This document shows, one piece after another, positions 171 through 28,470 of a stretch of 28,547 nt of DNA; the first letter of the stretch is position 1, and the number at the start of each line of letters is the position of its first letter. The notes under the pieces were generated by a model. The model ran no database searches. It was not told the DNA's origin and saw only the letters and a list, made by a program, of their open reading frames with translations. A program made the translations under genes and the position numbers. The stretch is from Farysia itapuensis (Eukaryota; Basidiomycota; Ustilaginomycetes; Ustilaginales; Ustilaginaceae): NCBI GenBank assembly GCA_023212645.1, contig JALBYC010000048.1:1-28547 (forward strand), given 5' to 3'.

Positions 171-1671
171 ATGCTATCTATTGGAATTTTCACAATACTA
201 GTAGCTATTCCTATTTTTTCCTCTAAAATTAATGCTAATATATGAAATCGTATTACTACTATAATTCTTTTTTACTCTGCTCTAATTTCTCTTAATGGTC
301 TACATATAGAGTCTATAGCTTCCGGAGTTGGAATTTTTAGTGGACTATTTACTGTTAATATTATTAATATATCAACTGAAATTTTCATACTATTTATTGG
401 TTGTATAATTCTTCTTGGTTGAGCTCCAATAAATAATCGAAATATAATGTCGAATATTAGTAATGTTCCTACTATTTCTGAATATTCTATTATAATTATA
501 TTCACTTGTATGGGTGCTACTATACTAATTAGTAGTTCTGATATAATTAGTATATATCTAAGCCTAGAACTACAAAGTTTTGCAGTTTATATTATAGCAA
601 CAATATATCGTAATTCAGAATCAGCTACAAGTGCTGGACTAAAATATTTTCTACTTGGTAGGACTATCATCAGCTTTTATTCTACTTGGTACTGCTATTA
701 TTTATTCTTATACAGGTATAACTCAATTTGAAAATATTTATAGTCTAATTCAAGTAAATCTATTTAATATAAATGATGGTATTACTTGAGGAATGCTATT
801 TATTGGTGTTGGTTTTCTATTTAAAGTAGCAGCTGCACCACTTCATAATTGAGCTCCTGATGTTTATGATGGTGTACCTACTATTATTACTATATGGCTA
901 ACTACAATACCTAAAATTTCTCTTCTTATTTTTCTTCTAGAAATTCAATCAGGAATGCAAGGTAATTATAATAGTCTAAGTATAATAATTAATTCTGTTG
1001 ATTTTGATATTTGAAAAAATCTTCTACTAATTTGTAGTATAATTAGTCTAATTATTGGTACTATTGTTGGACTTAGCCAATATCGAATTAAACGACTTTT
1101 TGCTTATAGTACAATTAGTCATATTGGATTTATACTACTAGCACTATCAATAAATACTGAACAATCAGTAGAATCATTTATTTTCTATATTGCTCAATAT
1201 TCAATTACAAATATTAATCTATTTCTAATTCTACTAGCTTTTGGATATATTAATAAAATTAAAGATATTGAATTTATTCATGAACTTCAAGGTCAATTTA
1301 AAATTAATCCACTACTAGCAATTAGTATAAGTATTTGTCTATTTTCAATAGCAGGAATTCCACCAATAATAGGATTTTTTGCAAAACAAATGGTACTTTA
1401 TTCAAGTATACAAAATGGATATTATTTTATATCTATTATTGCTATTATTGTAAGTGTTATTAGTGCTTCTTACTATCTAAAAATTATTCGAATTATATTC
1501 TTTGATAATCCTATTAGTAATGATAATGATTATACTATTACTACTCAGATGAGTAATATTCATAGTTTCATAATTACTATTATTACTTTTGTAATTACTA
1601 TATTTGTAATTCAACCTAATATTATACTAAATAGCGTAACTCTACTAGCTCTTAATCTATTTACTAATTTA
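171..1671 (+). CDS. nad2: NADH dehydrogenase subunit 2, needs one +1 frameshift and ends at TTA
   Basis: Proton-pumping membrane subunit of complex I, about 499 residues. The reading frame from ATG 171 runs to an in-frame AGG at 660-662. Skipping A660 and reading GGA continues the protein as [15 protein letters not shown], the conserved fungal Nad2 text, and the frame then stays open with [18 protein letters not shown] and [10 protein letters not shown]. The next candidate stop is TTA at 1669-1671, which shares one base with the nad3 ATG at 1671. Reading TTA as Leu would add about 13 residues across nad3 before a TAA. An in-frame ATG at 129 is cut off by TTA 159-161, so 171 is preferred. All Leu codons are CTN; TGA is Trp. 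What is seen: frame and sequence match. Inferred: programmed frameshift and TTA termination. Confidence 0.93.
654..668 (+). other. Proposed +1 frameshift site in nad2 (CTT GGT AGG ACT)
   Basis: In frame the codons are CTT GGT AGG ACT; A660 must be skipped so that GGA CTA follows GGT. AGG is the hungry codon: no tRNA with anticodon UCU is found in the genome. The same 12 bases occur at the nad5 shift site on the other strand. Confidence 0.82.
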
Positions 1672-2054
1672 TGAATACAATTACTCTCTATTTCTTTCTT
1701 ATTCCTATTCTAACTCTTATTCTACTATTTGCTAATCTACTTCTTGCTGTACATCGACCTGATTCTGAAAAAGTTACTCCTTATGAATGTGGTTTTAGTG
1801 TTGTATATGGTCAAACACGTAATCCTTTCCAAGTATCATTCTATCTTGTTGGTATTCTATTTCTAGTTTTTGATCTTGAACTTCTTATAACTGTACCATT
1901 TTGTGTTAATATATATAAAACTGGTGCTTATGGATTTTGAATTTTTATTATTTTCTTTATAGTACTAACAATTGGTTTTGTATATGAAATTGGAACAGGT
2001 GCACTATATTTCACTGATCAACGAAGTTCTATTAATAAATCAACTGTTAAATTA
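1671..2054 (+). CDS. nad3: NADH dehydrogenase subunit 3
   Basis: Small membrane subunit of complex I, 127 residues if TTA 2052-2054 is the stop, or two codons more to TAA 2058-2060. The conserved core is present: TPYECGF, then the [16 protein letters not shown] helix. TGA at 1938 is read as Trp in GAYGFW. The ATG at 1671 overlaps the last base of nad2, the tight nad2-nad3 coupling seen in many fungi, where the junction is usually TAATG; here it reads TTATG. The tail is Asn/Ser/Lys-rich and ends with TVK before TTA. Confidence 0.95.
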
Positions 2055-2060
2055 ATTTAA

Positions 2061-2079
2061 TCCCCATTTTTTCTATTTA
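2061..2079 (+). terminator. C-run 3' motif after nad3
   Basis: TCCCCATTTTTTCTATTTA lies directly after the nad3 stop, between nad3 and the oppositely oriented tRNA-Lys. It is one of a set of sense-strand CCCC motifs found downstream of genes here. A role in RNA 3'-end formation is inferred only. Confidence 0.35.
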
Positions 2080-2151
2080 TAAGGATAGCTGGAATTGAAC
2101 CAACACGATTGTATTAAAAGTACAACACTCTACCGATTAAGTTATACCCTC
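2080..2151 (-). tRNA. trnK: tRNA-Lys (UUU)
   Basis: On the minus strand: acceptor GAGGGTA/TATCCTT, anticodon stem TTGTA/TACAA with loop CTTTTAA (anticodon TTT). It lies antisense inside an otherwise plus-strand block between nad3 and cox1. Confidence 0.9.
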
Positions 2152-2230
2152 TAATATAAATATAAATAGTAATTGTTTATAGGTATTATAAAAATTTTTA
2201 AATATTAATTACCTATAATTAAAAAAATAT

Positions 2231-2314
2231 GGACAAACTGCTATTGGAGAAGCTACGCGTTTGCTAATCGCTAGGAAATAAACATCCTTGGGAGTTCGAA
2301 TCTTCTTTTGTCCG
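2231..2314 (+). tRNA. trnS: tRNA-Ser (GCU)
   Basis: Acceptor GGACAAA/TTTGTCC, T-loop TTCGAAT and a long variable arm typical of tRNA-Ser. Anticodon GCT is set in a loop closed by GCG/CGC. It reads AGT and AGC, both used as Ser here; with G34 it does not read AGA or AGG, which fits the absence of those codons. Confidence 0.87.
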
Positions 2315-2472
2315 AATATATTAAAAAGTAAAAATTTATATAGTCAAAATAGATACAATAAATATAGGTATATTCTCAAACTCGTGTACGGGATCTTAAA
2401 TACTATATGAATATTTTTTAAGTAACTACCGACAATGAGCTTTGATACGGTACCTTTTTGTGTAGGTTAAGT

Positions 2473-5334
<2,862 letters not shown>

Positions 5335-5525
5335 GTTGAAAAATAAAAAAAAAAGAATATATAGTATTATTAAATCTAATAAAATAAATATTTTGTTAAG
5401 ATTTATAAAAAAGAAAGATTATGTTATTATCTAATCAAGAATACAAATCAAAATATATATTTTGAATTAATCCTTATTTGAGAAAATTTTAAGAATAATA
5501 CTGAAATTAATTATATTAAAAATTA

Positions 5526-5672
5526 ATGCCTCAAATACTACCTTTTTATTTTGTAAATCAAATTTGTTTTACATTTTTTGCTCTTTCTATTCTAATTTAT
5601 CTATTCTCTAAATATATTCTACCTGCTTTTCTAGAACTATTTATATCACGAATGTATATTACAACTCTTTAA
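5526..5672 (+). CDS. atp8: ATP synthase subunit 8
   Basis: 48-residue subunit of the Fo stator, starting MPQ and with the PFYFVNQ block, one membrane helix, and a C-terminal [14 protein letters not shown] segment with a basic MSRMYITTL end (ATA read as Met). The fourth residue is ATA, giving MPQML. Stop TAA. It precedes atp6, the common fungal order. The 191-nt spacer after cox1 is AT-rich with no gene recognised. Confidence 0.93.
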
Positions 5673-5798: not shown

Positions 5799-6566
5799 AT
5801 GAACTTTCTAATTTTCTCTCCTCTTGAACAATTTGAAGTATTTAGTCTTATTTCTATTAATATACCTCTATTTGGTTATATTAATCTAAGTCTAACAAAT
5901 CTTGGTCTTTATAGTCTTCTAACAGTATTTCTAGTAATTGCACTACATATTTATGGTTCAAATAATTTTAATCTAATTCCTAGTCGATGGAGTATTTCAC
6001 TAGAAAGTAGTTTTGCGTCAGTACTAAATCTTGTTAAATCACAAATTGGTGCTAAAAATGAAATCTATTTTCCAGCAATTTATTCACTATTTTTCTTTAT
6101 TCTAATTGCTAATCTTAGTGGTAATATTCCTTATGGATTTACTATTGGTACTTCTATTATTGTAAGTATTGGACTAAGTATAACTATTTTTGTTGGTGTA
6201 ACGATTCTAGGACTACGACTACATAAAGAACATTTCTTCTCATTCTTTGTACCTGCTGGAACACCTCTAGGACTAGTACCTCTACTAGTACCAATTGAAC
6301 TAATTTCATATCTAGCACGAGCATTCTCACTTGGAGTTCGACTTTTTGCTAATGTAACTGCTGGTCATGTACTTATGAAAATTCTAGCTGGTTTCCTAAG
6401 TCCTATGTTTACTTCAAGTGTTCTAGTTTCAATCCTAACTATTATTCCTTTTGTAATTTTCACAGGTATTATTGGACTAGAAATTGCAGTATCATTTATT
6501 CAATCTTATGTATTCTGTGTTCTAACTTGTTCATATATTAAAGATGCTACAATTCTTCATTCTTAA
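5799..6566 (+). CDS. atp6: ATP synthase subunit 6
   Basis: Proton-channel subunit a of Fo, 255 residues. Start ATG 5799 gives MNFLIFSPLEQFEVF, the fungal Atp6 beginning; upstream in-frame codons include TTG and TTA, so the start is not further up. The essential Arg lies in SLGVRLFANVTAGH, next to PIELISYLARAF. Ends AGLEIAVSFIQSYVF-like (here GLEIAVSFIQSYVF) then a short tail, TAA at 6564. All Leu codons read are CTN, unusual at this base composition. Confidence 0.96.
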   Translation: MNFLIFSPLEQFEVFSLISINIPLFGYINLSLTNLGLYSLLTVFLVIALHIYGSNNFNLIPSRWSISLESSFASVLNLVKSQIGAKNEIYFPAIYSLFFFILIANLSGNIPYGFTIGTSIIVSIGLSITIFVGVTILGLRLHKEHFFSFFVPAGTPLGLVPLLVPIELISYLARAFSLGVRLFANVTAGHVLMKILAGFLSPMFTSSVLVSILTIIPFVIFTGIIGLEIAVSFIQSYVFCVLTCSYIKDATILHS

Positions 6567-6724: not shown

Positions 6725-6973
<249 letters not shown>

Positions 6974-7044: not shown

Positions 7045-7127
7045 GTGAACATGTTGAAATTGGTAGCCAAGTCGATTTTAGGAATCGGTAGTCTTAGACT
7101 GTGTAGGTTCAAATCCTATTGTTCACA
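7045..7127 (+). tRNA. trnL: tRNA-Leu (UAG), the only Leu tRNA
   Basis: Acceptor GTGAACA/TGTTCAC, anticodon stem TCGAT/ATCGG with loop TTTAGGA (anticodon TAG), long variable arm and T-arm with TTCAAAT. It reads CTN, which is every Leu codon in this genome. No tRNA-Leu(UAA) was found anywhere. Confidence 0.93.
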
Positions 7128-7158: not shown

Positions 7159-7232
7159 GCATACTTAGCTAAATTGGTAAAGCGTCTAACTTCGGATTAG
7201 AAGATTTAAAGGTTCGAATCCTCTAGTGTGCT
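7159..7232 (+). tRNA. trnR: tRNA-Arg (UCG), the only Arg tRNA
   Basis: Acceptor GCATACT/AGTGTGC, anticodon stem TCTAA/TTAGA with loop CTTCGGA (anticodon TCG). It reads CGN. No tRNA-Arg(UCU) was found, matching the lack of AGA and AGG inside genes. Confidence 0.93.
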
Positions 7233-7803: not shown

Positions 7804-7804
7804 T

Positions 7805-7867: not shown

Positions 7868-9836
7868 TAATTTATTAATAAATACAAATGCAATTATAAT
7901 AACAAAAATTAGACGTACATCAATTGGAATTATTATAAATGGTATAAATAGAATTATAAAGATAACAATAATTGATACTGCTATATAAACAGCATAACTT
8001 GTAACTATTCCAGTATCAAGAGTAGAAATATTAAAACTAGTTTTATTAAGACTATTAGTGAAACCATATGGTCCAATTATTTCAATAATACCACGATCAA
8101 TAACTTTAGAAAGAATATAACCAAGTTTAAGACTAGAATTAATAATATAATGATTTACAATAACATCAACAAAATATTTTTGATTAAAGAATCGATATAC
8201 TGCAATACCAATTTTATTATCAGTAAGACTACTTATAAAATAAGATTGATTATTATAAAGATAAATAGAAAGACTAGCACCAATAATAGTAATAATTATT
8301 GGGAATAGTTTCATAATAATAGGAGAACCAAATTCAGCTTCAACTATATAAATATTATTAGGATGAGTAAATAGACTATTACCAAAAAAATCACTACCAA
8401 TACCAACGAAAAGATCTTTAGCAATATAACCAAAGAAAATAGCTAGGATAGATAGAATAGTTAGAGGAATTATAACAGTAATTGAAGCATCATGAACATT
8501 AGAATAAGTATTTTTATTAGCATTAGGATAAGTAAGGAATGTTAGACTAATAAGACGGAAACTATAAAATGCAGTAAGTCCAGCACTAATAGTACCAAAC
8601 CAATAAGCAATATAACCATGGAATAGGTATTGACCATAAGCAATTTCAAGAATAAGATCTTTAGAATAAAAACCAGTTAGTCAAGGAAGAGCTATTAGAC
8701 TTAGACTACCAATTATAATGGCAGTATAAGTGAAAGGTAGGAAACCAATAAGTCCTACCAAGTCGTCGTTGATCTTGTTGATCATAAGTAGCATGAAGAA
8801 CAGCACCAGCAGCTAGGAAAAGTAGAGCTTTAAAAAATGCATGATTTACAAGATGAAATAGTGCAGTATTATAAGAACTTAGACCACATGCTATAAATAG
8901 ATAACCTATTTGAGAACAAGTACTATAAGCAATAACTCGTTTAAGATCATTTTGTATTAGTCCAGTTGATGCAGCAAAAAAAGCTGTAATAGCACCAACT
9001 CAAGTAATAGCAATAAGTGCAGTAGGACCATACTCAATAAGAGGAGAAGATCGTAGTAGTAGATAAACACCAGCAGTAACTAGTGTAGCTGCATGAATAA
9101 GAGCACTAACAGGAGTAGGACCCTCTATCGCATCAGCTAGCCAAATATGTAGACCAAATTGAGCACTTTTACCCATAGCAGCAAATAGTAGTAGTAGTCC
9201 AATAACAGTAATAAGAGTTTCATTAATTATTGGAGCAATACTAAATACTGTAGAATAATCAAGATTACCAAAAATATAAAATATAGCAAAAAATCCAATA
9301 GATAGTGATATATCACCAACACGATTTACAATTAGTGCTTTTATAGCACTTTTATTAGCTTGAATTCGTGTAAATCAGAAATTAATTAGAAGATAAGAAG
9401 AAATTCCAATACCTTCTCAACCTACAAATATAATAAGATAATTATCACCAGCAACAAGAATAAGTATAAAAAATGTAAATATACTTAGATATGAGAAAAA
9501 TCGTTGATTATGTGGATCATTACTTATATAATCAATTGAGAAAATATGTACTAGACTTGAAACAATTAGTACTGGTATAAGTATTGAAACAGTAAGACTA
9601 TCAAATATGAAACCTCAAGAAATTTCTATAAGTTCAGAATCAATTCAACTTATTATATTAATTGAAACAGGACTATTACAGATACCAACTTCAAAGAAAG
9701 CAATAAGAGCTATAATAGTAGAAAGAATAATACAACTACAAGTAATTCAATAAGAACCGGTAACACCGATTTTACGTCCAAGTAGTCCAGAAACAATAGA
9801 ACCAAGTATTGGAATTATAATTATACAAAGATACAT
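7868..9836 (-). CDS. nad5: NADH dehydrogenase subunit 5, needs one +1 frameshift and ends at TTA
   Basis: Proton-pumping antiporter-like subunit of complex I, about 655 residues. ATG 9836 starts MYLCMIMIPILGS. The core is clear: [48 protein letters not shown]. At 8756-8754 an in-frame AGG follows CTT GGT; skipping its A and reading GGA gives [17 protein letters not shown], the conserved text, then [15 protein letters not shown]. The frame ends at TTA 7870-7868 (FVFINK), three codons before TAA. Several conserved Met positions are ATA (VGD-M, CSQ-M-GY, SL-M-ALP). No TTA, TTG, AGA or other AGG was met in the parts translated. It starts two bases after the nad4L stop. Confidence 0.93.
8748..8762 (-). 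other. Proposed +1 frameshift site in nad5 (CTT GGT AGG ACT)
   Basis: On the minus strand the in-frame codons CTT GGT AGG ACT must be read CTT GGT (A) GGA CTT to keep the conserved RRLGGLIGF. The 12 bases equal those at the nad2 site. The skipped base is the complement of T8756. Confidence 0.82.
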
Positions 9837-9837: not shown

Positions 9838-10110
9838 TAATTCTTCAAGACTAATGTTTCCTCGTAGACGATAATAAGCAACTAGAATACCTAGTCCAAT
9901 AGCTGATTCAGCACCAGCAATAGTAATAATATAAAGACTATAAGTTTGTCCCAGAATATCATCAAAATTATAACTACTTACTAGAACAAGTATTGTAACA
10001 GATAGTAGTATAATTTCAATAGAAATAAGCATAAGAATAATATTTTTACGATTAAGAACAAAACCTAGTAGCCCAATTAGAAATAGAATTATAGATAGAT
10101 TAATAACTAT
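9838..10110 (-). CDS. nad4L: NADH dehydrogenase subunit 4L, ATA start and TTA stop
   Basis: 90-residue membrane subunit of complex I. Seen: GLLGFVLNRKNIILMLISIE, VSSYNFDDILGQ, and IAGAESAIGLGILVAYYRLRG, all typical. The frame upstream is bounded by TTA at 10113-10111, and the first possible initiator after it is ATA at 10110, so translation probably starts at ATA (read as Met). The protein ends NISLEE at TTA 9840-9838; one base later the nad5 ATG begins. If TTA were Leu, the frame would run 21 more codons inside nad5, using a TTG, before TAA. This mirrors the usual nad4L-nad5 junction in fungi. Confidence 0.92.
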
Positions 10111-12320: not shown

Positions 12321-13316
12321 TAAGTTAGGACTAATATCAAATGCAATTAGAATACTTGGAACTAGAATTAGTATAGCAATTGCTATTGGTAGTATACCTG
12401 TTCAACAAAATACTATTAGTTGATCATATCGAATTCGTGGTAGTGTAGCTCGAATTCATACAAATAGGAATATAATTATAACAGCTTTAACACCAAGAAC
12501 AATACTTTGAGTATTAAAATAATAATCTTCAGCAAATAGAAAATTAGGAATTATATTATAACCACCAAGAAATAGAATAGCAGTAAATGTAGATATAAGA
12601 ACAATACTTCCATATTCAGCAAGGAAGAAGAAAACGAAAATTATACCAGAATGTTCAGTTATGAAACCAGCAACTAGTTCTGATTCACTTTCACTAAGAT
12701 CGAAAGGAGTACGATTAGTTTCAGCAAGAGCAGAAATAAAGAACATAATAAAAATAGGAAATAGAGGTATAATATATCAAATACTTTGTTGTGATTCAAT
12801 AATTTTTGTAATATTAAAAGTACCACAAAGTAGAATAACAGATAGAACTGCTGCACTATAAATTAGTTCATAACTAATTATTTGTGCTGTTGAACGTAGA
12901 GAACCTAGAAATGCATATTTAGAATTAGCAGACCATCCAGCAAATAGAATACCATATACACCAATACTTGAAAGAGCAAGAGAATAAAGAATTCCAAGAG
13001 AAAAATCTGAAAGAGCTAGTCCAGGTCCAAAAGGTACAACTGCTCAACCAAGTAGACTAAAAATAAGTGTAAGCATAGGAGCAAGAAAGAAAAGAACTTT
13101 ATTTGCTTGAGCAGGAATAACTTGTTCTTTAATAACAAGTTTTAGTGCATCCGCAAACGGTTGTAGAAGTGCGTAATAACCAACAACATTAGGTCCAATA
13201 CGTCGTTGCATAGAACCTATAACTTTACGTTCAATTACAGTTATAAAAGCAACACTAAGTAGAATAGGTACAAGTATAACTATAATTTCAAGTAGATTAT
13301 AAAAAAATTGTGCCAT
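12321..13316 (-). CDS. nad1: NADH dehydrogenase subunit 1, ends at TTA
   Basis: Quinone-site membrane subunit of complex I, 331 residues from ATG 13316. Seen: [71 protein letters not shown]. The Met in ERKVM and STAQM are ATA codons. The end is [14 protein letters not shown] and then LIAFDISPN before TTA 12323-12321. If TTA were Leu, 11 more residues, one from AGG, would follow before TAA, through the C-run motif. TGA is Trp. All Leu codons are CTN throughout. Confidence 0.95.
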
Positions 13317-13486: not shown

Positions 13487-14236
13487 TAAAGATTGACTAT
13501 CAATTCATGTTAGATATTTTTCAGGACTAACACTTTCAATAACAACTGGTATAAATCCATGGTAAATTCCACAAATTTCTGAACATTGTCCATAAAATAC
13601 ACCTTCACGTTCAATTAGTACTGATGTTTGATTTAGACGTCCAGGCACTGCATCAATTTTTAGTCCTAGAGAAGGTACTGCAAAATCATGAATTACATCA
13701 CTTGATGTTACAATAAATCGAATATGTGTATCTATTGGTACTACAATACGATTATCAACTTCAAGTAGTCGTAGTTGACCTTCTTCTAGATCTGTTTCAG
13801 GTACTATATATGAATCAAATTCAATACTTTCACCATCTTCATTAATAAAATCAGAATATTCAGCACTCCAATACCATTGATGTCCAGCTACTTTAACTGT
13901 TATAGACGGACTAATAACTTCATCCATTAGATAAAGTAGTTTAAAACTAGGGAAAGCAATAGCAATTAGTACAAAAGCTGGTGTAATAGTTCAAATAAGT
14001 TCAATAAGTGTACCATGATTAGCATATTTATAAACAAGTTGAGATTTACTACTATGAAAATTTATAGTTACAGAGCCAAGAATTCAAAGAACACCAAAAC
14101 AAATAATAACTAGATAAAAGAAAATAGAATCATGTAGTTCAGTAATACCTTCGTGAGTAGGAGAAGCACTATCTTGGAATCCAATTTGCCAAGCTTCAGG
14201 TGCATCATTAAAAATAGGAAAAAATATACTAAACAT
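13487..14236 (-). CDS. cox2: Cytochrome c oxidase subunit 2, ends at TTA
   Basis: CuA subunit of complex IV, 249 residues from ATG 14236 (MFSMFFPMFN-like start, then [16 protein letters not shown]). Two N-terminal membrane helices, the GHQWYW aromatic motif, and the CuA site [16 protein letters not shown] are seen. The CuA Met ligand is encoded by ATA at 13552-13550, strong evidence that ATA is Met. The protein ends EKYLTWIDSQS at TTA 13489-13487, the usual Cox2 end; reading TTA as Leu would add a Phe-rich tail of about ten residues before TAA. TGA codes the Trp of KYLTW. Confidence 0.96.
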
Positions 14237-14778: not shown

Positions 14779-14998
14779 ATTGTATAATATTAAATATCTT
14801 ATACCTATATAAATAATTATAAATATTCAATGTATAAAATAAAATAAATAACATTTATTAAAAATATATTCGTATTTAGACAGTATTATCTCAGAAATTA
14901 TATAAGAGAAATTAACAGTATATATAATCTTATTTATAATATATATATATATATATCAATATACAAAATATAGGATGAGAATGAACTATTATTAATAT
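14779..14998. other. Divergent intergenic region with an (AT)n tract
   Basis: This 220-nt gap separates tRNA-Ser(UGA) on the minus strand from tRNA-Trp on the plus strand, so both long units diverge from here. It contains a TA dinucleotide run near 14938-14957. A promoter or origin is likely by position, but no known promoter motif was recognised. Confidence 0.4.
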
Positions 14999-15070
14999 AA
15001 GAATATCGTATAATGGTTAATACAGTGATCTCCAAAATCATTTATGTTGGTTCGATTCCGGCTATTCTTG
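14999..15070 (+). tRNA. trnW: tRNA-Trp with anticodon CCA
   Basis: Acceptor AAGAATA/TATTCTT, D-stem GTAT/ATAC, anticodon stem GTGAT/ATCAT (first pair G-T), loop CTCCAAA with T33 and anticodon CCA, T-stem GTTGG/CCGGC, discriminator G. Fungal mitochondria that read UGA as Trp normally carry UCA here. No second Trp tRNA was found, so this one must read UGA as well as UGG, perhaps after C34 modification or editing, or helped by the weak 27-43 pair (inference). Confidence 0.85.
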
Positions 15071-15133
15071 AAATATTCTATTATATTAAAGGTATGAATG
15101 GTGCAGGTAAAAAAAAATAAAATAATTATAAAA

Positions 15134-16576
15134 ATGCTTATAACTATTGTAATAATTCCTCTTGTAGGAATACTATATCTAACAGGTATGTCAAATAAAA
15201 ACTCAATTAATAAAATAAAACGCGTAGCACTGATAACTACAATTATTAATTTTCTAGTTAGTATTGTAATATGAAGTCAATTTGATTCAAATATATCAGA
15301 TTATCAATTTACTATAGAATTTAATACTGTAGATTTTTGTCATTTTAATATTGGTATTGATGGGATCTCACTTTATTTTGTTATACTAACAACTTTTATT
15401 ATACCAATTTGTATTATAAGTAATTGAGATAATATTAAATATAATATAAAATATTTTCTTATAAGTTTTCTGCTACTTGAAACACTTCTAATTAGTGTAT
15501 TTATTGTACTAGATATTCTACTTTTCTATATTTTCTTTGAAAGTGTACTAATTCCTCTATTCCTAATTGTAGGTATTTGAGGTGGTAGTGATTCACGAGT
15601 ACGAGCATCATTTCTACTATTTCTTTATACACTATTTGGTTCTCTATTTATGCTACTAGCATTTATAATAATTTATAAAAATGTCGGTTCTACAGATTAT
15701 AAAATAATTAATATAATAGATATTAGTATAGAAGCTCAGAAAATACTTTGAATTCCTATTTTCATTAGTATAGCAATTAAAACTCCTATAATACCTTTCC
15801 ATATTTGGCTATATCGTGCTCATGCTGAAGCTCCTCTTGCTGGTAGTGTTATTCTAGCTGGTCTTATTCTAAAACTAGCTACTTATGGTTATATACGAAT
15901 TATACTACAATTTCTACCAGATGCTTGTAATTATTTTGCTCCTTTTGTACAAACTATTGCTGTTATTACTATTATTTATTCTTCTCTTGTTACTATACGA
16001 CAAACGGATTTTAAAGCTCTTGTTGCTTATTCTAGTATTTCTCATGTTAGTATTGTTGTACTTGGACTATTTTCTAATACTATTCAAGGTATTGAAGGTG
16101 GTATTATTCTATCTATTGCTCATGGTCTAGTTAGTCCTGCTCTATTTATTCTAGTAGGAGGTGTACTATATGATCGATTCCATACACGTACAATTCGTTA
16201 TTATCGAGGTATAGTAGTATTTATACCTATTTTTAGTATACTATTCTTTATTTTCACAATTTTCAATGCAGCAGTACCTCTTAGTGCTAATTGAATTGGT
16301 GAATTTATATCACTAACAGGTATCTTCCAAACTAATCCTATTGTTGGTATTATAGCAAGTAGTAGTATTGTACTTAGTGCTGGTTATAGTATTTGGCTAT
16401 TTAATCGTATTAGTTTCGGTAGTTATTCAAAATATCTTAATTATACTACTGATATTAATCGACGAGAATTCTCAGTTATTATACCACTACTAATTATAAG
16501 TATTATCCTAGGTATTTATCCAAATGTAGTACTAAATGATATTCATATATCTGTATCTAATCTAATTTATGCATAA
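15134..16576 (+). CDS. nad4: NADH dehydrogenase subunit 4
   Basis: Antiporter-like subunit of complex I, 480 residues from ATG 15134 to TAA 16576. Seen: FNIGIDGISLYFV, the membrane Glu in FFESVLIPLFLIVGIWG, KTPMMPFHIWLYRAHAEAPLAGSV (both Met are ATA), TDFKALVAYSSISH, SIAHGLVSPALFILVGG and RYYRGM. TGA is Trp in GIWGG. The frame is continuous with no AGG, TTA or TTG. It stops at TAA, so TAA and TTA are both in use in neighbouring genes of one subunit family. Confidence 0.96.
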
Positions 16577-17340: not shown

Positions 17341-20300
17341 ATGCGACTCCTAAAAACACATCCTATTCTAGGTCTAGCTAATAGTTATCTAATTGATAGT
17401 CCGCAACCATCGAATATTTCATATATATGGAATTTTGGTTCACTTCTGGGGACTTGTCTAGTAATTCAAATTCTAACAGGAGTATTTCTAGCAATGCATT
17501 ATACACCTTCTGTTGATATAGCATTTGTTAGTGTAGAACATATAACAAAAATTTTCGTATAATGTGTTCAAATGGTAAACTTCACTATATGCTGGAAAAT
17601 TTCAATAAATAAATTATATTACTAATATTAATAAAAAAAATTTATTAGAATAATCAGCAAGAAACTATATTAAATATGATAATAATAGTAAAACTTTTAT
17701 AGTTATTATAAAATAAAGAATTTAATAAAGGATCTTCAGAGACTACACGTGAAGCTTAAAATTTACTAATATTTTAAGGTAATATAGTCCAAAATTTAAT
17801 TTAAATAATAAAAATAAGTTTGATAGCTAATACGATTTTTAATATAAATCCAGATCAAAAGAAAAAAGACGATTTTGGGCAATGACTATCAGGATTCATT
17901 GATGGAGAAGGATGTTTTCAGATTCTGGTATCTAAATCAAATCGAATTGGTCTACGATTCCAAATTGCACTTCATATTGATGATATTCAAGTTCTTTATA
18001 AGATTCAAAATTTTCTAAAAACAGGAAATATTTATATTAGTGTGAAAGAGGTAGGTACTTATTGTATCTATAATATTAGTAATGTAGAAAGTATTATAAC
18101 TAAACTTGTACCTGTACTAGATACTAATAAACTGCGTACTACAAAATATCTTGATTATATAGACTTTCGTACAGTGTGCTTTATACTTCATGAAAAACTT
18201 TCTAATATAGATGTAGAACTAGTTCGAAAAATAAAAAGTGGTATAAATACGGGACGTGTAAATCCTGATATCTCTAATATTCCAAAAACAATTATAAATA
18301 TTAATTGGCTAATCGGATTTATTGAGGGTGAAGGTACATTCGGATTTAAGCATCTACGACCTTATTTTCAACTAGGTCAGCACAAACGAAATAAACATGT
18401 ACTAGATAATATTGTAGAATATCTAGAATCACTACCTAGTCTATATAATTATTCTACTAATTATGTACCTCTAAAAATGAGTATTTCTCTGAATAAACGT
18501 ACAAATGTTTATATTATTAGTAATGTCAATTGTGATAGTCTTTATGATATTATAGCACATCATTTTCTACAATGTACTTTCCACTCTCGTAAAAATATTG
18601 ATTTTTTCTTTTGGTGTATTGCACTATATATAAAAAAACATGGATATTTTTACATAAAACAAGGTCGAATAATTGCGATTACTATTGCTAAGTATGTTAA
18701 TATTTCACGATATACTACCTCAGGAATTAATCCTATTTTTCCTATTATTGACATAAAATTTCTAACTTCAACTCTACCTGTGAAACTAACACCAACTATA
18801 TCTCACCTTGAACTTAGTCATGCATTCGCAAAACTAAATAACAAAGATCGTGCTATTTGAGTTTATGATAACAATGTTCTTGTTAACGGCAGCCCTTTTA
18901 ATAAAATTGCAGATGCATCGGTAAGTATTGGAATTGACCGAAAATCTATTACAATTTCACGTTATATTGATACTGGAAAACTATATAAAAATCGTTATAG
19001 TTTCTATTCCAAACCTATTTTAAATTATTACACCCTACTCGAAGATTATGCGAGACGTTAACTACGGTTGGCTAATTCGTTATCTACATGCTAATACTGC
19101 ATCATTCTTTTTTATTTTTGTTTACCTTCATATTGGTCGAGGACTATATTATGGATCATATAAATCACCTCGAGTTCTACTATGGTCAATTGGAGTTATT
19201 ATTCTAATTCTAATGATAGCAATTGCATTTCTAGGTTATGTACTACCTTATGGTCAAATAAGTCTATGGGGTGCAACAGTAATTACTAATCTACTAAGTG
19301 CTATTCCTTGAATTGGTCAAGATTTTGTAGAATTTGTATGAGGAGGTTTCTCTGTAAGTAATGCTACACTTAACCGATTTTTCTCTCTACATTACCTACT
19401 ACCATTCGTTCTAAGTGCACTAGTTGCTATGCATCTACTAACACTACATGAACACGGAAGTAGTAATCCACTAGGTGTATCAGGTAATACTGATCGTCTA
19501 CCATTTCATCCATATTTCACATTCAAAGATCTAGTAACAATTTTTGTATTTATTCTTGTTCTATCTATCTTTGTATTTTATATACCGAATGTTCTAGGTC
19601 ATTCAGATAACTATATTCCCGCAAATCCTATGATAACACCTCCTTCGATGTATTGTGTATTACAATATTAAAAATGAAAAATCACTAAAAAGCTTAAAAA
19701 ATGGCTATATTAAATAAAAATCAAATCTATTATTATGAAGACAACACTAAAAAAGAAATTCAATGACAAGTTTATATAATTAATTATTATTACTATTATA
19801 GTAGTTATATAAATCGGAAGATTCTAAACAATAAAAATATTTATATTGAGAACACTGATAAATATTTTGATAATCTACTAACTATTTCTTTTATTTCTCT
19901 TATTTATAAAAAGAATATTCCTGATGATTATCGTGTTACTCTTCTTAAATTTATAAATTTTTCTGCTAGCTCTATCAATTTTAATCTGAAAATTTATGAT
20001 ACTATAAATAATTGTCTTAAATCCGCTATAGCATATCGTGATAATGTTCTTAATAATACTCTTACTATTATTAAAGATAAACTAATTATAACAATGATTT
20101 GATTTCATTTTTTCTCATTTTCATTTACATTTCATTTCATTTATTCGTCGCTTAATATTTCTCTCTTTTTTATATATTTTTTAATATTAAGTCAATATGG
20201 TTAATTGCATTAAATATTTTCATTGAATAGATTTGCAGCTAAAATTAATTTATAAATTAATGATATGATTTATAAATTAATTAAGTTCAACGACTAAAAA

Positions 20301-20811
20301 GTGAGTATAATAATATTTTTACAATAATCTTTACAAGAACACCATATAATAAATATAATAATATTTTCTATTATATTTTATTAAATACATAGTCTAGACA
20401 ATAATAAAAATTATTGATTTAAGTTTAAATACTTATTAAAAATTATAACGTGTACCTGAATGGTATCTACTACCATATTATGCTATTCTTCGTTCTATTA
20501 GTTCTAAAATTCTAGGAGTTATTGCTATATTTATAAGTCTACTTATTCTACTAGCTATACCAATTGTAGATACTAGTCGAGTACGAGGAAATCAATTCCG
20601 ACCACTATCACGACTATCATTCTGAGTATTTGTAGTTAATTTCTTTATCCTTATATTCGTTGGTAGTCAACATGTTGAAAGTCCTTATACTGAAATTGGT
20701 TCTTTCGCTACTGTATTTTATTTCAGTTGGTTCCTAATTGTAGTACCTGTTATTGGTATTATTGAAAATACACTTATAGATATTGCAACTATAGAAAAAA
20801 ATACTAACTAA
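17341..20811 (+). CDS. cob: Apocytochrome b, three exons
   Basis: Heme-carrying core subunit of complex III, 388 residues from exons 17341-17541, 19045-19649 and 20451-20811 (1,167 nt in all). Junctions read [13 protein letters not shown] and [19 protein letters not shown], both restoring conserved text. Seen: [61 protein letters not shown] segments, and PANPM. ATA fills normally invariant Met positions at 19216 (LM-M-A) and 19258 (GQ-M-SLW). TGA is Trp. Stop TAA at 20809, followed at once by TAG. Confidence 0.96.
17542..19044 (+). other. cob intron 1, group I with LAGLIDADG ORF
   Basis: The 5' exon ends in T (GAACAT) and the intron ends in G. Core words TCAGAGACTACACGTG (near 17737) and AATATAGTCCAA (near 17783) can form P7, so the ORF lies 3' of the core. 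It sits after codon 67 of cob. Exon 1 stays in frame for only six codons of the intron. Confidence 0.88.
17823..19022 (+). CDS. LAGLIDADG endonuclease/maturase in cob intron 1, TTA stop
   Basis: About 399 residues. Two LAGLIDADG motifs are seen: [12 protein letters not shown] near residue 30 and [12 protein letters not shown] near residue 165, both with acidic residues kept. A C-terminal NUMOD1-like DNA-binding segment follows: [20 protein letters not shown], then [19 protein letters not shown]. No ATG exists upstream of the first motif; the frame is bounded by TTG (17820), so the start is probably ATA 17823 (MANTIFNMN). The frame reaches TTA at 19020-19022 directly after the NUMOD1-like end (FYSKPI), inside the intron. 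Read as Leu it would continue into exon 2 and need AGA. Leu is CTN and Arg CGN throughout, as in host genes. Confidence 0.87.
19650..20450 (+). other. cob intron 2, group I
   Basis: Exon 2 ends TCGAT, the intron ends in G and exon 3 starts TGTACCTGAATGG, giving Ile as AT|T and the conserved SIVPEW. Core words are TTAATTGCA (P), GATTTGCAGC (Q), GTTCAACGACTA (R) and ACATAGTCTAGACAAT (S) between 20195 and 20405. The same R and S words occur in the small rnl group I intron, so the two are probably of one subgroup. An ORF of unknown type occupies the 5' part. Confidence 0.87.
19713..20183 (+). CDS. Uncharacterised ORF in cob intron 2
   Basis: Open frame of 156 codons between TTA 19710-19712 and TTA 20181-20183, with TGA as Trp and no TAA or TAG. 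Leu is always CTN and Arg CGN, as in real genes of this genome, which argues that it is or was translated. I recognise no LAGLIDADG, GIY-YIG or HNH motif. The protein would be Tyr/Asn/Ile-rich with a Phe-rich end ([12 protein letters not shown]). There is no ATG near the 5' end: ATG 19701 is followed three codons later by TTA, so an ATA start (first at 19776) is needed if TTA is a stop. It may be a decayed endonuclease. Confidence 0.45.
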
Positions 20812-21067: not shown

Positions 21068-21893
21068 ATGAATATTAATAAACCTACTATATTTCAATTT
21101 CAACCTTTTCATCTTGTTACTCCTAGTCCTTGACCTCTATTTACTTCTTTTACTCTACTTATTTTTACTACTGGTTCTGTTATATATTTTAATGGTTATG
21201 CTAATCCACTTGGTGGTTCTGGTATTGTACTTGTTATAATTGGTCTATTCACTACTATTAGTGCTATAGTACTATGGTTCCGAGATGTAGTAACTGAAGG
21301 TACATATCTAGGAGATCATACATTTGTAGTACAAAAAGGTATTACAATAGGAGTTGCACTATTTATTATTAGTGAAATCTTCTTCTTTGTTTCTATTTTC
21401 TGAGCTTTCTTTCATTCTAGTCTTGCTCCTACTATTGAACTTGGATCTCAATGGCCACCTGTTGGTATTGCTACTATTAATGCTTTTGAACTTCCTCTAC
21501 TTAATACACTACTACTACTATCTTCAGGTGCTTCTGTAACATATGCACATCACGCACTTATTAAAGGGAATCGTCAAGATGTTATTCTTAGGAATGCTTC
21601 TTACACTTAGTTTTGCTATTCTATTTACCTTTTGTCAAGGTCTAGAATATTATAATGCTCCTTTCACTATTGCTGATGGAGTATACGGAAGTACATTCTT
21701 CTTTAGTACTGGTGGTCATGGTCTACATGTTATTATTGGTACACTATTTCTAGGAGTAGGTTTCGTACGAATTCTTAATTACCATGTTACTGATCATCAT
21801 CATCTAGGATTTGAATCATCTATTCTATACTGGCACTTTGTTGATGTAGTATGGCTATTCCTATTTATTACTGTATATTGGTGAGGTTCATTA
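21068..21893 (+). CDS. cox3: Cytochrome c oxidase subunit 3, needs one +1 frameshift and ends at TTA
   Basis: Subunit 3 of complex IV, 274 residues from ATG 21068. The first part has [31 protein letters not shown] (Met is ATA), [11 protein letters not shown] and WPPVGI. After KGNRQDVIL (CTT at 21587) comes in-frame AGG 21590-21592; skipping A21590 and reading GGA gives [17 protein letters not shown], the conserved continuation; without it TAG follows six codons on. The rest has the fully typical [11 protein letters not shown] and [18 protein letters not shown]. It ends WGS at TTA 21891-21893, the usual Cox3 C-terminus. Reading TTA as Leu would add about 18 odd residues with another TTA. Confidence 0.94.
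21584..21598 (+). other. Proposed +1 frameshift site in cox3 (ATT CTT AGG AAT)
   Basis: The codons CTT AGG A match the core of the yeast Ty1 +1 site, CUU AGG C, in which tRNA-Leu(UAG) slips from CUU to UUA while AGG waits for a rare tRNA. Here tRNA-Leu has anticodon UAG and no AGG tRNA is encoded. The mechanism is inferred; the frame break is seen directly. Confidence 0.85.
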
Positions 21894-22270: not shown

Positions 22271-22342
22271 AGAACACAGAGGGAATCGAACCCTAATGGT
22301 AGAATTTGCAATTCTCCAATAGAAACCATCTATACTATGTTC
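22271..22342 (-). tRNA. trnC: tRNA-Cys (GCA)
   Basis: On the minus strand: acceptor GAACATA/TGTGTTC, anticodon loop TTGCAAA (GCA) closed by AGAA/TTCT, T-loop TTCGATT, discriminator T. It follows nad6 on the same strand. Confidence 0.9.
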
Positions 22343-22400: not shown

Positions 22401-23006
22401 TTATGTCATTTCAGAATTTCGAGTATTTAGTGATAGAATAATAGGTCCTACTAGTGCTAGAAGTAGAATTATACTTGCTATAATTAGTCAAATTGCACTT
22501 ACTGTGTAAAGATTAAATCCTACACTTTGAATTTGAATAAAATTATTAAATTGGCTATCTGCACCTATATTATTATATACTGAATATACTTCATTAAATT
22601 CTTTATTATTATTAAATAGTATTATATTAATAGTATTTATTATACTTTGTCCTACTATATTATTTTTTATTGGTAGAATTATTACTAGTTCATATAGAAA
22701 TAGACTTCCAATTAGTGTTCCTAGTGGTAGATTTTTAGTATAATTATTTCCAATACTATTTAGTTCTGTTAGTTGTAGATTTAGTATTATAATTACAAAT
22801 AGAAATAGTACTGTTACTGCTCCAATATATACAATCAGATAAGAAATTCCAATAAAACCAATTCCTAGTAGAATTAGATAACCTGCTGCATTAACAAATA
22901 CTGAAATTAGAAATAGTACCGAAATTACTGGATTTTTTGATGTAATTACTAGAATTGAAGATACAATAGCTCCAATTGATAGTATATCAAATAGAAAATT
23001 ATTCAT
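22401..23006 (-). CDS. nad6: NADH dehydrogenase subunit 6
   Basis: Membrane subunit of complex I, 201 residues from ATG 23006 to TAA 22403-22401. Seen: SKNPVISVLFLI, the hallmark GISYLIVYIGAVTVLFLFVI followed by two ATA codons and LNLQLTEL, which in other fungi is VIMMLN. TGA is Trp near the C-terminus (AIWLI). A C4 run on the coding strand (22399-22396) touches the stop. The middle region (residues 90-160) is Asn/Ile-rich and variable. It stands alone with tRNA-Cys on the minus strand. Confidence 0.94.
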
Positions 23007-23539
23007 TATATTTTTACATTTTTATTACCTTATTTAAAATAGTAAATAATTTCTTTTTATTTTTCTTATTTTCTATTTCATTTTAACGGTATAATTATTA
23101 TTATCATTACTTAATAATTATTATTTACTTTTATTTTACTTTATTTAATTTCATCTTTTATAATACAATATAATATGATATAATACTATACTATAACTAT
23201 ATAATATAATATAATTCTTTTAAATATAATTAACATTTCATTACATTATAATATATTACCAATATAATACAATATTACATATTTCTTTTATTATAGTTTA
23301 TTACAATACAAATTTTCTTTTTTAATTTTTCTTGAGAAAAGAATAGAAAAAATATACAAATGTATCACAATTAATTACTATTAAAATGTCTCTATAAGAT
23401 CTACCTATAATAAAAATAAAAAATAATAGAATATGTATATATATATATATATATATTAAATAATATAGTATATAATTATTATAAAGATAGATTAGATTAT
23501 AAATAAGAAAATATAGGTAGCGATAAATAATATTGAATG
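23007..23539. other. Divergent AT-rich region nad6/rnl
   Basis: About 530 nt between nad6 (-) and rnl (+), extremely AT-rich, with a TA run near 23436-23455 and many TAATATAATA-like repeats around 23160-23290. No tRNA, ORF or known promoter motif was recognised. As one of two divergent gaps in the circle, it is a candidate for transcription start and replication origin (inference from position). Confidence 0.45.
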
Positions 23540-25537: not shown

Positions 25538-26193
25538 GTGCGACAAGATTAATTATATTATAATAATAAGGTGTGAATCCTTCTTATAAATCCATTATTT
25601 GAGTTCAAATGGCATGCTATATAATAGTAATATTTTAGTATGAAGCCCATTGAAATCCATTATTAATTATTTCTTTATTTTAATAATATGAAAATTTTTC
25701 TATTTAATAATTAATAATGGTGAACTAATTATCTATGAACAATTTTAATGAATCCATGTTTAAAGCGTAAAACTGACTAATATTTTTTAATATTAGATTG
25801 TTGATTGTAATAAAGTGTTTTCGTACTTTATTTTATGGATCTATATATCAACTTACGTATAGTGGAGTTCTAAGGATAATAATAAAGTATTATAATATAA
25901 ACTTGGTAAGCCCAATAGTATCTATAAAATTAACTATTTTATAGAGGTTTTTATTGTAAAATAATAATATCTACTAGTGGGTAAAGGATGTTCTAAAAAG
26001 CGAATGATTTATTGTAATGATAAATATAAGTTAATAAATATAACTAATCTGAAAGGATGCTGACTTAGAACTGACATATTAATAGAAATTTAATTGATTA
26101 TTAATTTTTAATATGTTTGAGCTGTATGCGATGAAAGTTGCACGTACAGTTCTATTTGGGGGAAAGTTTCGTGAGGAACCTACCTATCAAGAC
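25538..26193 (+). other. Group II intron in rnl, no ORF
   Basis: Starts GTGCGAC (group II consensus GUGYG) and ends CTATCAAGAC. Domain V is seen at 26119-26152 as GAGCTGTATGCGATGAAAG followed by its pairing arm TTGCACGTACAGTTC; a branch-type A lies in CCTATCAAGAC. Removal gives TTAGACGAAA|AGACCCTATG, the conserved 23S text, so the site is at about E. coli A2059/A2060. At 656 nt it has no reverse transcriptase and must rely on factors in trans. Confidence 0.9.
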
Positions 26194-26643
26194 AGACCCT
26201 ATGCAGCTTTACTGTAGCTTTATATTGTTTTAATGGAGATTAAGGTGTAGTAATACAAGGGATGTGAATTATAATGATTCACGACAATTGAAAAACCTTG
26301 ACAATAATTGATATTAAGACTAATTAAAACAGTGATATAATTTAATTAATTTGAGAGTTACGACTTTTTATATATTTAATTTCTAATTATGAGTTTTAAA
26401 ACAGTATATTGTGGTCAGTTTTACTGGGACGGTAGCTTCTAAAAAATTATCAGAAGCCACTAAAGATATGTAATAATTTAGTCAGAAACTAATTAACTAT
26501 GTAAGGTTTAATAAAGTATAATAGCTTAAACATTATCTAACTGAAAGACCTATAAGTCAATCAGATATTCAAGTAGAGTATAGTGATCCGGTGATTCTTT
26601 ATGGAAAGGTCATCGCTCAAGAAATAAAAGTTACGCTAGGGAT

Positions 26644-26902
26644 AAATGTTGTCCTTTTTATTAATAATAATTCTTTTATTTAATTTATTAATAATTATAA
26701 TCGGGTCAATTGCAAAAAATACTTTTTAATAAGAATATTTGCAGCGAAGCATTTTTTTGAACGTTCAACGACTAATGATAAATTTATTATCATGAATAAT
26801 GCCCGACATTTATATTAAATATGAGTTTCATTTTTTTCTCTTTTTTAATATAAATGATGACATAGTCTAAACAATATAAAAATATATTGAATAATTTATA
26901 TG
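26644..26902 (+). other. Small group I intron at the omega site of rnl
   Basis: The 5' exon ends GCTAGGGAT and the 3' exon starts AACAGGTTAAT, the position of the yeast omega intron (about E. coli 2449). Core words TCAATTGCA (P), ATTTGCAGC (Q), GTTCAACGACTA (R) and ACATAGTCTAAACAAT (S) are present. It is only 259 nt and has no endonuclease ORF, unlike omega. The core resembles cob intron 2. Confidence 0.9.
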
Positions 26903-27540
26903 AACAGGTTAATTATTTGCGAGAGTTCACATTGTCCAAATAGTTTGACACCTCGATGTCGACTCATCTCATCCTCCAGGAGCAATCACTTGGAAGGGTT
27001 CAGCTGTTCGCTGATTAAAGAGGTACGTGAGTTGGGTTCAATACGACGTGAGTCAGTATGGTTTTGTCTCTTCTGAAGGGAAAAGTAGTATAGTTAAGAA
27101 TTCAGTTCAGTACGAAAGGACCAACTTGGAGTAATCCTCTGGTAAACCTATTGTATCATTAAAAGATTGCACCGTAGGGTAGCTACGATTATGACAGATA
27201 AGTGCTGAAAGCATCTAAAGCACGAAGCACACTTAATTTATACTACAAGAAATAAGAAAAAGAATATTTCTTAAAATTAGTTATTTAACTAATATATTAG
27301 GATATAAATGTAAGCAATAGTAATATGTTGAGTTTAATATTTCTAATTAATTATTATTCTTAATTGTATAATATTATCTATCGCTAATTTCAAACAATAT
27401 TAATATAATAAGGTAATATAATTTAAATTAACTAAACTAATAAAAAATAGAATTAATTTCAATTTTCTATTTATTGTGATAATAACAGTAACAAAAATTT
27501 CTTTTGTTACATTTCACTATAAATAGAAATTACTTTCCTA

Positions 27541-27614
27541 CAGATTGATGGCCTAATGGTTCAGGGTGATCACTTTGGGAGTGATAGTACAGAGTTCGAG
27601 TCTCTACAATCTGA
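27541..27614 (+). tRNA. trnP: tRNA-Pro (UGG)
   Basis: Acceptor CAGATTG/CAATCTG, anticodon stem ATCAC/GTGAT with loop TTTGGGA (TGG), T-stem AGAG/CTCT. Confidence 0.9.
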
Positions 27615-27619
27615 ATTGT

Positions 27620-27692
27620 GGTATTATAGCAAAGTGGTTAATGCGACGTACTGTTAATACGTTTATCGAAAGTTCAAATCTTTCTAATACCT
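27620..27692 (+). tRNA. trnN: tRNA-Asn (GUU)
   Basis: Acceptor GGTATTA/TAATACC, anticodon stem ACGTA/TACGT with loop CTGTTAA (GTT), T-stem GAAAG/CTTTC. It lies five bases after tRNA-Pro. Confidence 0.92.
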
Positions 27693-27843
27693 ATTATACC
27701 TATTATAAATTATAAAAATAAAATTAAATAGGTATTAAATACTTAAAAAATTGTACTTAAATAAAAAAAGAAAATATTTAAGGCTTATATAATAGAAATT
27801 TATATATATATAAACATTACTAAAAATCTAAATATAATATAAT

Positions 27844-28470
27844 ATGATAAATATAAATAATAAAATTAACTATAATCAAGTTAAATCATTTAATTCAATT
27901 AATAAAAATTATGATAATGTAATGAATAAAATTACTAGTTATTTTGAGATACTTAATAATAATAATGAACAAAAAATTCTAATTAATACACCGACATATA
28001 AGATAACAAATGATAAAATAAATATTGAGATTATATATTATTCAACATCTAAAACAGTAATAAATAAACAAAATTTTCTAGATCTAAATAAGATTATTTC
28101 TAAAGAAGTTGATAAAGAGATTAATATTATTATAAATCGTATTCATTATCCTTATATAAATAGTCTAATTTTTGCTAAATATCTTAGTCATAATTCAAAT
28201 TATTGTAATTATACTAAATATCAAGATTATATTAATTCTAATATTAAAATTGTTAAAAATTCTCTGCCCGCATCTATTCTAGGTATTAAAGTTACTATTT
28301 CAGGACGTATTCCTACACAACGTGTTATTCCACGTAAAACAATAAAAACTATTATATATGGAACATTTAAAGGTAATCATAATATAATAATTGATTATAA
28401 TAAATTTACAACATCAAATCATCTTGGTACATTTACTTTTAAAGTTTGAATTTGTCAACATATAAAATTA
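27844..28470 (+). CDS. rps3: Ribosomal protein S3 (Var1/Rps3 type), ends at TTA
   Basis: Small-subunit ribosomal protein, 208 residues. The N-terminal two thirds is Asn/Ile/Lys-rich and not conserved, as in yeast Rps3/Var1. The C-terminus is recognisable: LPASILGIKVTISGRIPTQR, then IDYNKFTTSNHLGTFTFKVWI, like the S3 end GxKVxxSGR and GxxGVKVWI. TGA codes the Trp of KVWI. It ends ICQHMK at TTA 28468-28470, directly before an A12 run; read as Leu, the frame would continue through poly-Lys into the tRNA-Gly leader to TAA 28493 (across the circle junction). No TTR or AGR codon occurs inside. Confidence 0.85.

Follow-up and report, generated by a model that had tools for sequence, protein, structure and literature searches.

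In the mitochondrion of the stramenopile Thraustochytrium (NCBI genetic code 23), TTA serves as a stop codon beside TAA, TGA also is a stop, and TTG encodes leucine. The mitochondrial code of the green alga Pycnococcus provasolii has TGA as tryptophan and both UUA and UUG as stops. In human mitochondria, the former sense codons AGA and AGG are read by mtRF1 (PDB 8oin), a dedicated paralogue with an altered codon-recognition loop that exists beside mtRF1a. Sense-to-stop reassignments that place a U in the middle of a stop codon are very rare, and to our knowledge no UUA-reading release factor has been identified so far.

Contig JALBYC010000048.1 of Farysia itapuensis, analysed here over its whole length of 28,547 nucleotides (the window), carries the complete mitochondrial genome of this fungus. 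Its end exactly repeats its beginning, so that the molecule closes into a circle of 28,470 bp:

28471..28547, no strand assigned: end repeat, exact copy of window positions 1-77 (77 nt)

The code of this genome is that of mould mitochondria (NCBI genetic code 4) with UUA added as a stop: TGA is tryptophan, CTN is leucine and TAA is a stop, as in code 4, but TTA is a stop instead of leucine, and no use is made of TTG, AGA or AGG as sense codons. The parallel with code 23 drawn in the first-pass annotation holds for TTA as a stop beside TAA and breaks down at TGA, which is tryptophan here, and at TTG, which is unused; moreover, the host is a fungus and not a stramenopile. P. provasolii shares the tryptophan TGA and the UUA stop, although TTG ends no F. 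itapuensis gene and the lineages are unrelated. The likeness to human mtRF1 would be that a former sense codon is read by a mitochondrial release factor whose loop is altered; unlike the human paralogue, however, the one Mrf1 found in F. itapuensis would need to handle UAA as well as UUA. A scan of viral contigs with Cox1 gave three pattern matches, with no relative among them.

TTA within and at the ends of genes

Codons were counted in the 15 core mitochondrial genes after splicing (4408 sense codons). As the first-pass annotation had noted for the frames that it read, TTA is absent in frame (0/4408, with about 136 expected from position composition alone); off frame, the same spliced sequences hold 384 TTA in 4393 triplets of the +1 frame and 128 in 4393 of the +2 frame. 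All 530 leucine codons are CTN and none is the TTA of table 4, while TTG, leucine in table 23, is likewise missing (0/4408), as are AGA and AGG as sense codons. A lone TTG in the frame of cob intron 1 is codon 6, and the LAGLIDADG match begins later, at residue 28. TGA occurs in frame 39 times in the core genes, several times where Cox1 has a tryptophan in a conserved context (FLVWSHH, FYFWAPK, FAGWNII), and thus is tryptophan as in table 4 and not the stop of table 23.

Of the 15 core genes, nine terminate at TTA, as does one of two intron ORFs counted. These ends are given here with the number of codons to the next in-frame TAA or TAG:

1669..1671, + strand: TTA end of nad2 (13 codons); its A doubles as the A of the nad3 start codon ATG (TTATG)
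2052..2054, + strand: TTA end of nad3 (1 codon)
6971..6973, + strand: TTA end of atp9 (0 codons; TAA follows directly, so that atp9 alone is non-discriminating)
7868..7870, - strand: TTA end of nad5 (2 codons)
9838..9840, - strand: TTA end of nad4L (21 codons; read-through enters nad5)
12321..12323, - strand: TTA end of nad1 (10 codons)
13487..13489, - strand: TTA end of cox2 (9 codons)
19020..19022, + strand: TTA end of the LAGLIDADG ORF of cob intron 1 (12 codons)
21891..21893, + strand: TTA end of cox3 (20 codons), directly after ...YWWGS
28468..28470, + strand: TTA end of rps3, VAR1 family (4 codons)

TAA closes the other six core genes as well as the ORF of the cox1 intron:

4022-4024, + strand: TAA end of the cox1 intron ORF
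5332..5334, + strand: TAA end of cox1
5670-5672, + strand: TAA end of atp8
6564-6566, + strand: TAA end of atp6
16574-16576, + strand: TAA end of nad4
20809-20811, + strand: TAA end of cob
22401-22403, - strand: TAA end of nad6

All ten TTA-terminated frames named in the first-pass annotation proved to be real, its list of genes ending in TAA was borne out, and TAG terminates none of the 17 frames (15 core genes and two intron ORFs). Its further claim, that TTA falls at the expected C-termini, held for Cox3, Cox2, Nad1 and Nad4L, the four proteins whose frames were read through TTA and queried against solved structures. Beyond TTA, none of 32 solved chains matches the Cox3 query, and the furthest matches extend 2 residues for Cox2, 1 for Nad1 and 2 for Nad4L; a C-terminal extension through TTA was rejected on these grounds. 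The rps3 family profile is full (194/195) 3 residues before TTA; the Nad5 C-terminus is too poorly conserved for its homologous end to be placed.

Codons without a credible tRNA gene

Four tRNA genes, or candidates, are listed here:

2231..2317 (ends approximate), + strand: probable trnS(GCU), recognized by eye
7045..7127, + strand: trnL(UAG), the only credible leucine tRNA gene found, reading CUN
7159..7232, + strand: trnR(UCG), the only credible arginine tRNA gene found, reading CGN
22271..22342, - strand: trnC(GCA)

ARAGORN, run in standard, intron and mitochondrial modes, called neither trnL(UAA) nor trnL(CAA); the Rfam tRNA model yielded neither of them to an E value of 10, and neither rose above noise in a scan for arm geometry; ARAGORN at its most relaxed setting listed several candidates with UAA or CAA anticodons within 338 matches that were nearly all plain noise. 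The probable trnS(GCU), called by neither ARAGORN nor Rfam, has a clear 7-bp acceptor stem and T arm, an imperfect anticodon stem and a fold z-score of only -0.82. There is a slight chance that an aberrant trnL escaped these searches as trnS(GCU) did; such a tRNA would find nothing to read, because no TTA sense codon exists. Since TTA is absent within genes, stands at homologous C-termini, lacks a credible cognate tRNA gene and overlaps the start of nad3 in TTATG, UUA almost certainly acts as a true stop codon here, beside UAA.

No credible trnR(UCU) was found in the mitochondrial genome, and AGG is present only at four +1 frameshift sites, in the context T-AGG-A:

660..662, + strand: AGG +1 site in nad2 (GGT AGG ACT)
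3064..3066, + strand: AGG +1 site in the cox1 intron ORF (ACT AGG AAA)
8754..8756, - strand: AGG +1 site in nad5 (GGT AGG ACT)
21590..21592, + strand: AGG +1 site in cox3 (CTT AGG AAT)

Each of these four genes requires one +1 frameshift, which we infer to take place at AGG. The first-pass annotation mentions neither these frameshifts nor the lack of TTG, AGA and AGG. Mitochondrial +1 frameshifting is known from glass sponge, turtle and Kazachstania, where likewise the ribosome passes over one base inside core genes at a codon that is rare or unread. In F. itapuensis, by contrast, the shift would always occur at AGG followed by A, with glycine (GGA) in the new frame, and would be tied to the lack of trnR(UCU). 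One genome thus holds two orphaned codons with different fates, UUA as a stop and AGG as a +1 shift.

The 13.7-Mb nuclear assembly of the same fungus was searched for aminoacyl-tRNA synthetases and release factors. The best match to the model of bacterial-type LeuRS (NAM2 type, TIGR00396) reaches 73.5 bits against a cut-off of 548.4, possibly owing to an assembly gap, whereas the bacterial-type AspRS, taken as control, was found at 483.8 bits (cut-off 373.85). The sole LeuRS found is of the eukaryotic type (1027.5 bits); comparison of it with solved structures gave no placement of the fungus in a phylum. Two other nuclear ORFs that match the LeuRS model (C5 and C12) were rejected as duplicated LeuRS; their translations, as we read them, resemble ValRS and mitochondrial IleRS. 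Upstream of the LeuRS ATG lie 91 in-frame codons without a stop or ATG that resemble a mitochondrial presequence; 252 of 5000 shuffles were equally open, and 415 of 1018 open shuffles had equally few acidic residues. Dual targeting of the single LeuRS is a guess.

Proposed reading of UUA by a release factor, and its rivals

Three nuclear genes encode release-factor domains: an RF1-like protein (Mrf1), an ArfB-like protein and a short GGQ protein. Mrf1, the only codon-reading mitochondrial release factor found, combines PCRF and RF-1 domains with GGQ and scores 300.9 and 308.8 bits with the NCBIfam RF1 models, under their bacterial cut-offs of 423.25 and 400. It keeps the PxT codon-recognition motif (PST, residues 285-287) as well as Q181, R182, P184, T186 and T194 (T. 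thermophilus numbering). The first-pass annotation had pointed to the nuclear mtRF1 codon-recognition loops, and in this single Mrf1 the loop is indeed altered: it reads QNTDKLQT versus ETQGRIHT in the RF1 chain of 4v4r, which we take to be that of T. thermophilus, i.e. E187Q, T188N, Q189T, G190D, R191K, I192L and H193Q. The last change places Gln294 of Mrf1 at the position of His193, the residue that stacks on the second codon base. Histidine occupies this position in 16 of 17 aligned bacterial sequences (9 RF1, 8 RF2), the 17th being unreadable there, and in 12 of 12 rows of another, partly overlapping set. As the comparison set consisted of bacterial RF1 and RF2, the altered loop might simply be typical of the lineage and have no bearing on UUA. 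An AlphaFold model of Mrf1, based on no more than 9 sequences, has a mean pLDDT of 69.7 (below 50 for residues 1-80) and places the loop between strands 277-283 and 294-305; it was not used for the claim on codon reading.

On this basis, it is moderately likely that Mrf1 is the factor that reads UUA. A wider history, in which trnL(UAA) was lost, UUA was captured as a stop and an altered Mrf1 reads both UUA and UAA, appears quite probable to us, and its order of events may be pictured as follows. Loss of trnL(UAA), the tRNA for UUR, would have been accompanied by a shift of all leucine sites to CUN, so that neither UUA nor UUG had a tRNA any longer. Changes in the codon-recognition loop of Mrf1, the sole mitochondrial class-I release factor, at His193 (to Gln) and adjacent residues would have allowed it to accept U besides A as the second base, and stops would then have drifted from UAA to UUA. 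Loss of the tRNA does not by itself explain the choice of UUA, as UUG is equally without a tRNA yet never is a terminator.

The first-pass annotation had offered two mechanisms, reading of UUA by a release factor and termination triggered at an unread UUA, and the altered loop of the single Mrf1 favours the former. A ribosome stalled at a hungry UUA, with its peptide freed by a nuclear-encoded ArfB/ICT1-like or short C12orf65/Rso55-like factor, would agree with the lack of a credible UUR tRNA gene, with the rescue-type RF-1 proteins of the nuclear assembly, and with the perturbed decoding (+1 shifts) at AGG, another unread codon. Yet UUG ends nothing and AGG leads to a frameshift and not to release, and an unread codon alone therefore does not amount to termination; rescue at nine of 15 genes probably would be slow, and it does not require an altered Mrf1 loop. 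We consider this explanation rather unlikely.

More improbable by far is a frameshift at an unread UUA with termination at a stop in the new frame, as has been proposed for human COX1 and ND6 at AGA/AGG. Five of the ten ends read TTAA (nad3, nad5, nad4L, the cob intron-1 ORF and rps3), where a +1 slip would bring UAA into the A site, and +1 shifting at AGG appears to operate in this very genome. In the other five, however, the +1 frame continues, for 6 codons in cox3, 12 in nad1, 19 in cox2 and 21 in nad2, and without a stop in the approximately 22 codons examined in atp9; the -1 frame offers no general solution, and TTA itself fits 10 of 10 ends. Slippage by +1 or -1 onto a stop close by was rejected as a general explanation, given that it fits only five. 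It is scarcely credible, finally, that mRNA 3' ends arise by cleavage inside TTA or immediately behind it, or that TTA is edited, with UAA completed post-transcriptionally. Animal mitochondria commonly complete truncated stops with poly(A), which supplies an analogy, but polyadenylation is not general in fungal mitochondrial mRNAs, no tRNA separates nad2 from nad3 or nad4L from nad5, pairs that overlap or abut, and neither the absence of TTA within genes nor its presence at 10 of 10 ends would be explained.

Release-factor reading of UUA may be joined with the other features of this system. One omnipotent release factor, re-tuned through His193-to-Gln and adjacent changes so that either U or A is accepted as the second base, would recognize both UUA and UAA, the mitochondrial LeuRS would have been lost together with trnL(UAA), and the tRNA-less AGG would act as a programmed +1 signal; we judge the case for this combined scheme to be evenly balanced. 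Since the mitochondrial genome, the synthetases and the one Mrf1 identified are all known from one organism, the learning of a second base by a release factor is directly testable. Annotation of the mitochondrial genome with table 4 yields extended C-termini in nine genes and three apparently broken genes.

Codon usage and gene ends

The exact 77-nt terminal repeat of the contig (C43, one of 53 in the 13.7 Mb assembly), with positions 1-77 identical to 28471-28547, indicates a closed, complete circle of 28,470 bp. This circle encodes rnl, rns, tRNAs and 15 proteins (atp6, 8 and 9; cob; cox1-3; nad1-6 and 4L; and rps3, which matches the VAR1 family in a family profile search). Among solved structures, Nad1, Nad4L and Nad5 each find their top match in a chain of 7zm7, a Chaetomium complex, and in such a search the nuclear leucyl-tRNA synthetase (LeuRS) matches cytoplasmic LeuRS; on these matches, the source organism is taken to be a fungus. 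No ATG lies near the conserved start of nad4L (10107, minus strand), where the initiation codon would need to be ATA, GTT or ATT. Other features are as follows:

14998-15071, plus strand: trnW, anticodon CCA
26117-26193, plus strand: domain V of a group II intron, within rnl
19713-20183, plus strand: open frame in cob intron 2, with an in-frame TTA at both limits and one CGG

With each gene rebuilt, exons joined and one base omitted per AGG frameshift site, the 15 core genes comprise 4408 sense codons, among which TTA, TTG, AGA and AGG are all absent, and Leu is encoded 530 times, always by CTN (348 CTA, 172 CTT, 8 CTG, 2 CTC). The same spliced sequences hold 384 TTA in the +1 frame and 128 in the +2 frame, a further 810 occur on the plus strand outside these genes, and about 136 are expected in frame from position-specific composition; the absence is therefore not compositional, and the count bears out the first-pass annotation, which had met no TTA inside the frames it read. 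Trp is encoded by 39 TGA and 27 TGG, and TGG exceeds its expectation from composition about sevenfold; reading of UGA by trnW(CCA) would need C34 editing or modification. Four nuclear genes use TTA (7 of 3743 codons counted), and the change thus looks confined to the mitochondrion.

TTA ends nine of the 15 core genes (nad1, nad2, nad3, nad4L, nad5, cox2, cox3, atp9, rps3) and the ORF of cob intron 1; TAA ends the other six and the cox1 intron ORF. TAG ends none of these 15 genes and two intron ORFs, as had also been noted at first reading. The next TAA or TAG lies 0 to 21 codons beyond TTA, and four frames were extended past it and searched against solved structures. For Cox3, 32 chains matched and not one continues beyond TTA, the best two stopping at YWWGS, directly before it, and a whole-protein search likewise does not pass it. 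The top Cox2 chain, 6giq, finishes one residue short of the last Cox2 residue before TTA, and the furthest match reaches 2 residues beyond TTA. The Nad4L query carried 21 codons past TTA; the alignment with its top chain stops two codons ahead of TTA, where 2 residues of that chain remain, and its furthest matches reach 2 residues beyond. For Nad1 the furthest match extends 1 residue. The rps3 family profile is already complete three residues before TTA. The Nad5 C-terminus is uninformative because its best relative extends beyond the region that can be aligned, and the atp9 end (TTATAA) is uninformative on its own. At the nad2/nad3 junction, TTATG, stop and next start share one base, an overlap that TAATG provides in many fungi.

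Together, the 0 of 4408 in-frame count, the ten TTA ends and the fit of the tested C-termini to homologues make it very highly likely that UUA is a stop codon in this mitochondrion, as first proposed. The analogy then drawn with NCBI table 23 holds for the TTA stop and fails for the code as a whole. The code here is table 4 with TTA turned into a stop; UUG and AGA have no assignment, and AGG serves in +1 shifting.

Leucine tRNAs and leucyl-tRNA synthetase

No credible gene for a UUR tRNA was found by ARAGORN (standard, intron and mitochondrial modes), Rfam (to E 10) or a scan of the circularised sequence for tRNA arm geometry. In these searches trnL(UAG) and trnR(UCG) are the only credible Leu and Arg tRNA genes, and the absence of AGA and AGG fits the missing trnR(UCU). 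ARAGORN at its most relaxed setting gave 338 matches; UAA, CAA and UCU anticodons among the matches listed were taken as noise. The arm-geometry scan recovered 18 known tRNA genes and missed trnD, trnI, trnE and trnS(GCU), which other searches or inspection by eye show. Its best UAA-anticodon candidate (26474-26559, minus strand) lies inside rnl and scored 40, against at least 48 for the recovered genes.

A single LeuRS was found in the assembly, scoring 1027.5 bits as a eukaryotic-type enzyme:

L020:244-3858 (G000:C1:594744-598358), minus strand: eukaryotic-type LeuRS

No match came near the cut-off for a bacterial-type LeuRS (73.5 against 548.4 bits), and the two weak editing-domain matches (33.1 and 32.1 bits; cut-off 25) are located in ValRS-like and mitochondrial IleRS-like genes. 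As a positive control, an AspRS of bacterial type was found (483.8 bits), presumably the mitochondrial enzyme. The mitochondrial LeuRS thus seems to have been lost, unless the assembly has a gap there, and the cytosolic enzyme may act in the mitochondrion as well; the 91 in-frame, presequence-like codons without ATG that precede its ATG are no more than suggestive of dual use. A switch of synthetase could plausibly have prompted the loss of one of two mitochondrial Leu tRNAs.

Release factors and AGG frameshift sites

Three RF-1-domain genes were found in the assembly, and only the first below has a codon-recognition domain:

L002, 1330-2763, minus strand: RF1-like mitochondrial release factor Mrf1, 477 aa, PCRF and RF-1 domains
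L003: short GGQ protein
L004: ArfB-like protein

Compared with the RF1 chain of 4v4r, presumably from T. thermophilus, L002 retains Q181, R182, T194, GGQ and the PxT residues P184 and T186. Its recognition loop, a region that the first-pass annotation had named as a check, is altered from E-T-Q-G-R-I-H-T to Q-N-T-D-K-L-Q-T, including G190D, R191K, I192L and H193Q. In RF1 crystal structures, Thr186 contacts stop-codon bases 1 and 2 and His193 stacks on the second. Among nine RF1 and eight RF2 sequences from nine bacterial genomes, position 193 is His in 16 of 17, the other having an unreadable base, and in a partly overlapping bacterial set it is His in 12 of 12.

Three core genes and the cox1 intron ORF each shift frame by +1, in every case where an in-frame AGG stands between T and A (T-AGG-A):

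660-662, plus strand: nad2, GGT AGG ACT
8754-8756, minus strand: nad5, GGT AGG ACT
21590-21592, plus strand: cox3, CTT AGG AAT
3064-3066, plus strand: cox1 intron ORF, ACT AGG AAA

No further AGG codon was counted in the 15 genes or the two intron ORFs, and sequencing error would hardly pick the same codon four times. With the A omitted and GGA (Gly) read, the two proteins tested, Nad5 (RRLGGLIGFLP with FRKFGGLISYLP) and Cox3, align across the site without a gap. Probably AGG occupies the A site as a hungry codon and tRNA-Gly(UCC) pairs one base downstream.

These sites bear on the main rival to reading of UUA by a release factor, namely that ribosomes stall at UUA and are then rescued. In the same organelle, however, an unread codon, AGG, leads to +1 shifting instead of release, and this speaks against UUA being simply unread. 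The best-supported hypothesis is that an altered Mrf1 would read UUA as well as UAA; H193Q, at the residue that contacts base 2, may be the change to look for in a factor accepting either U or A at that base.
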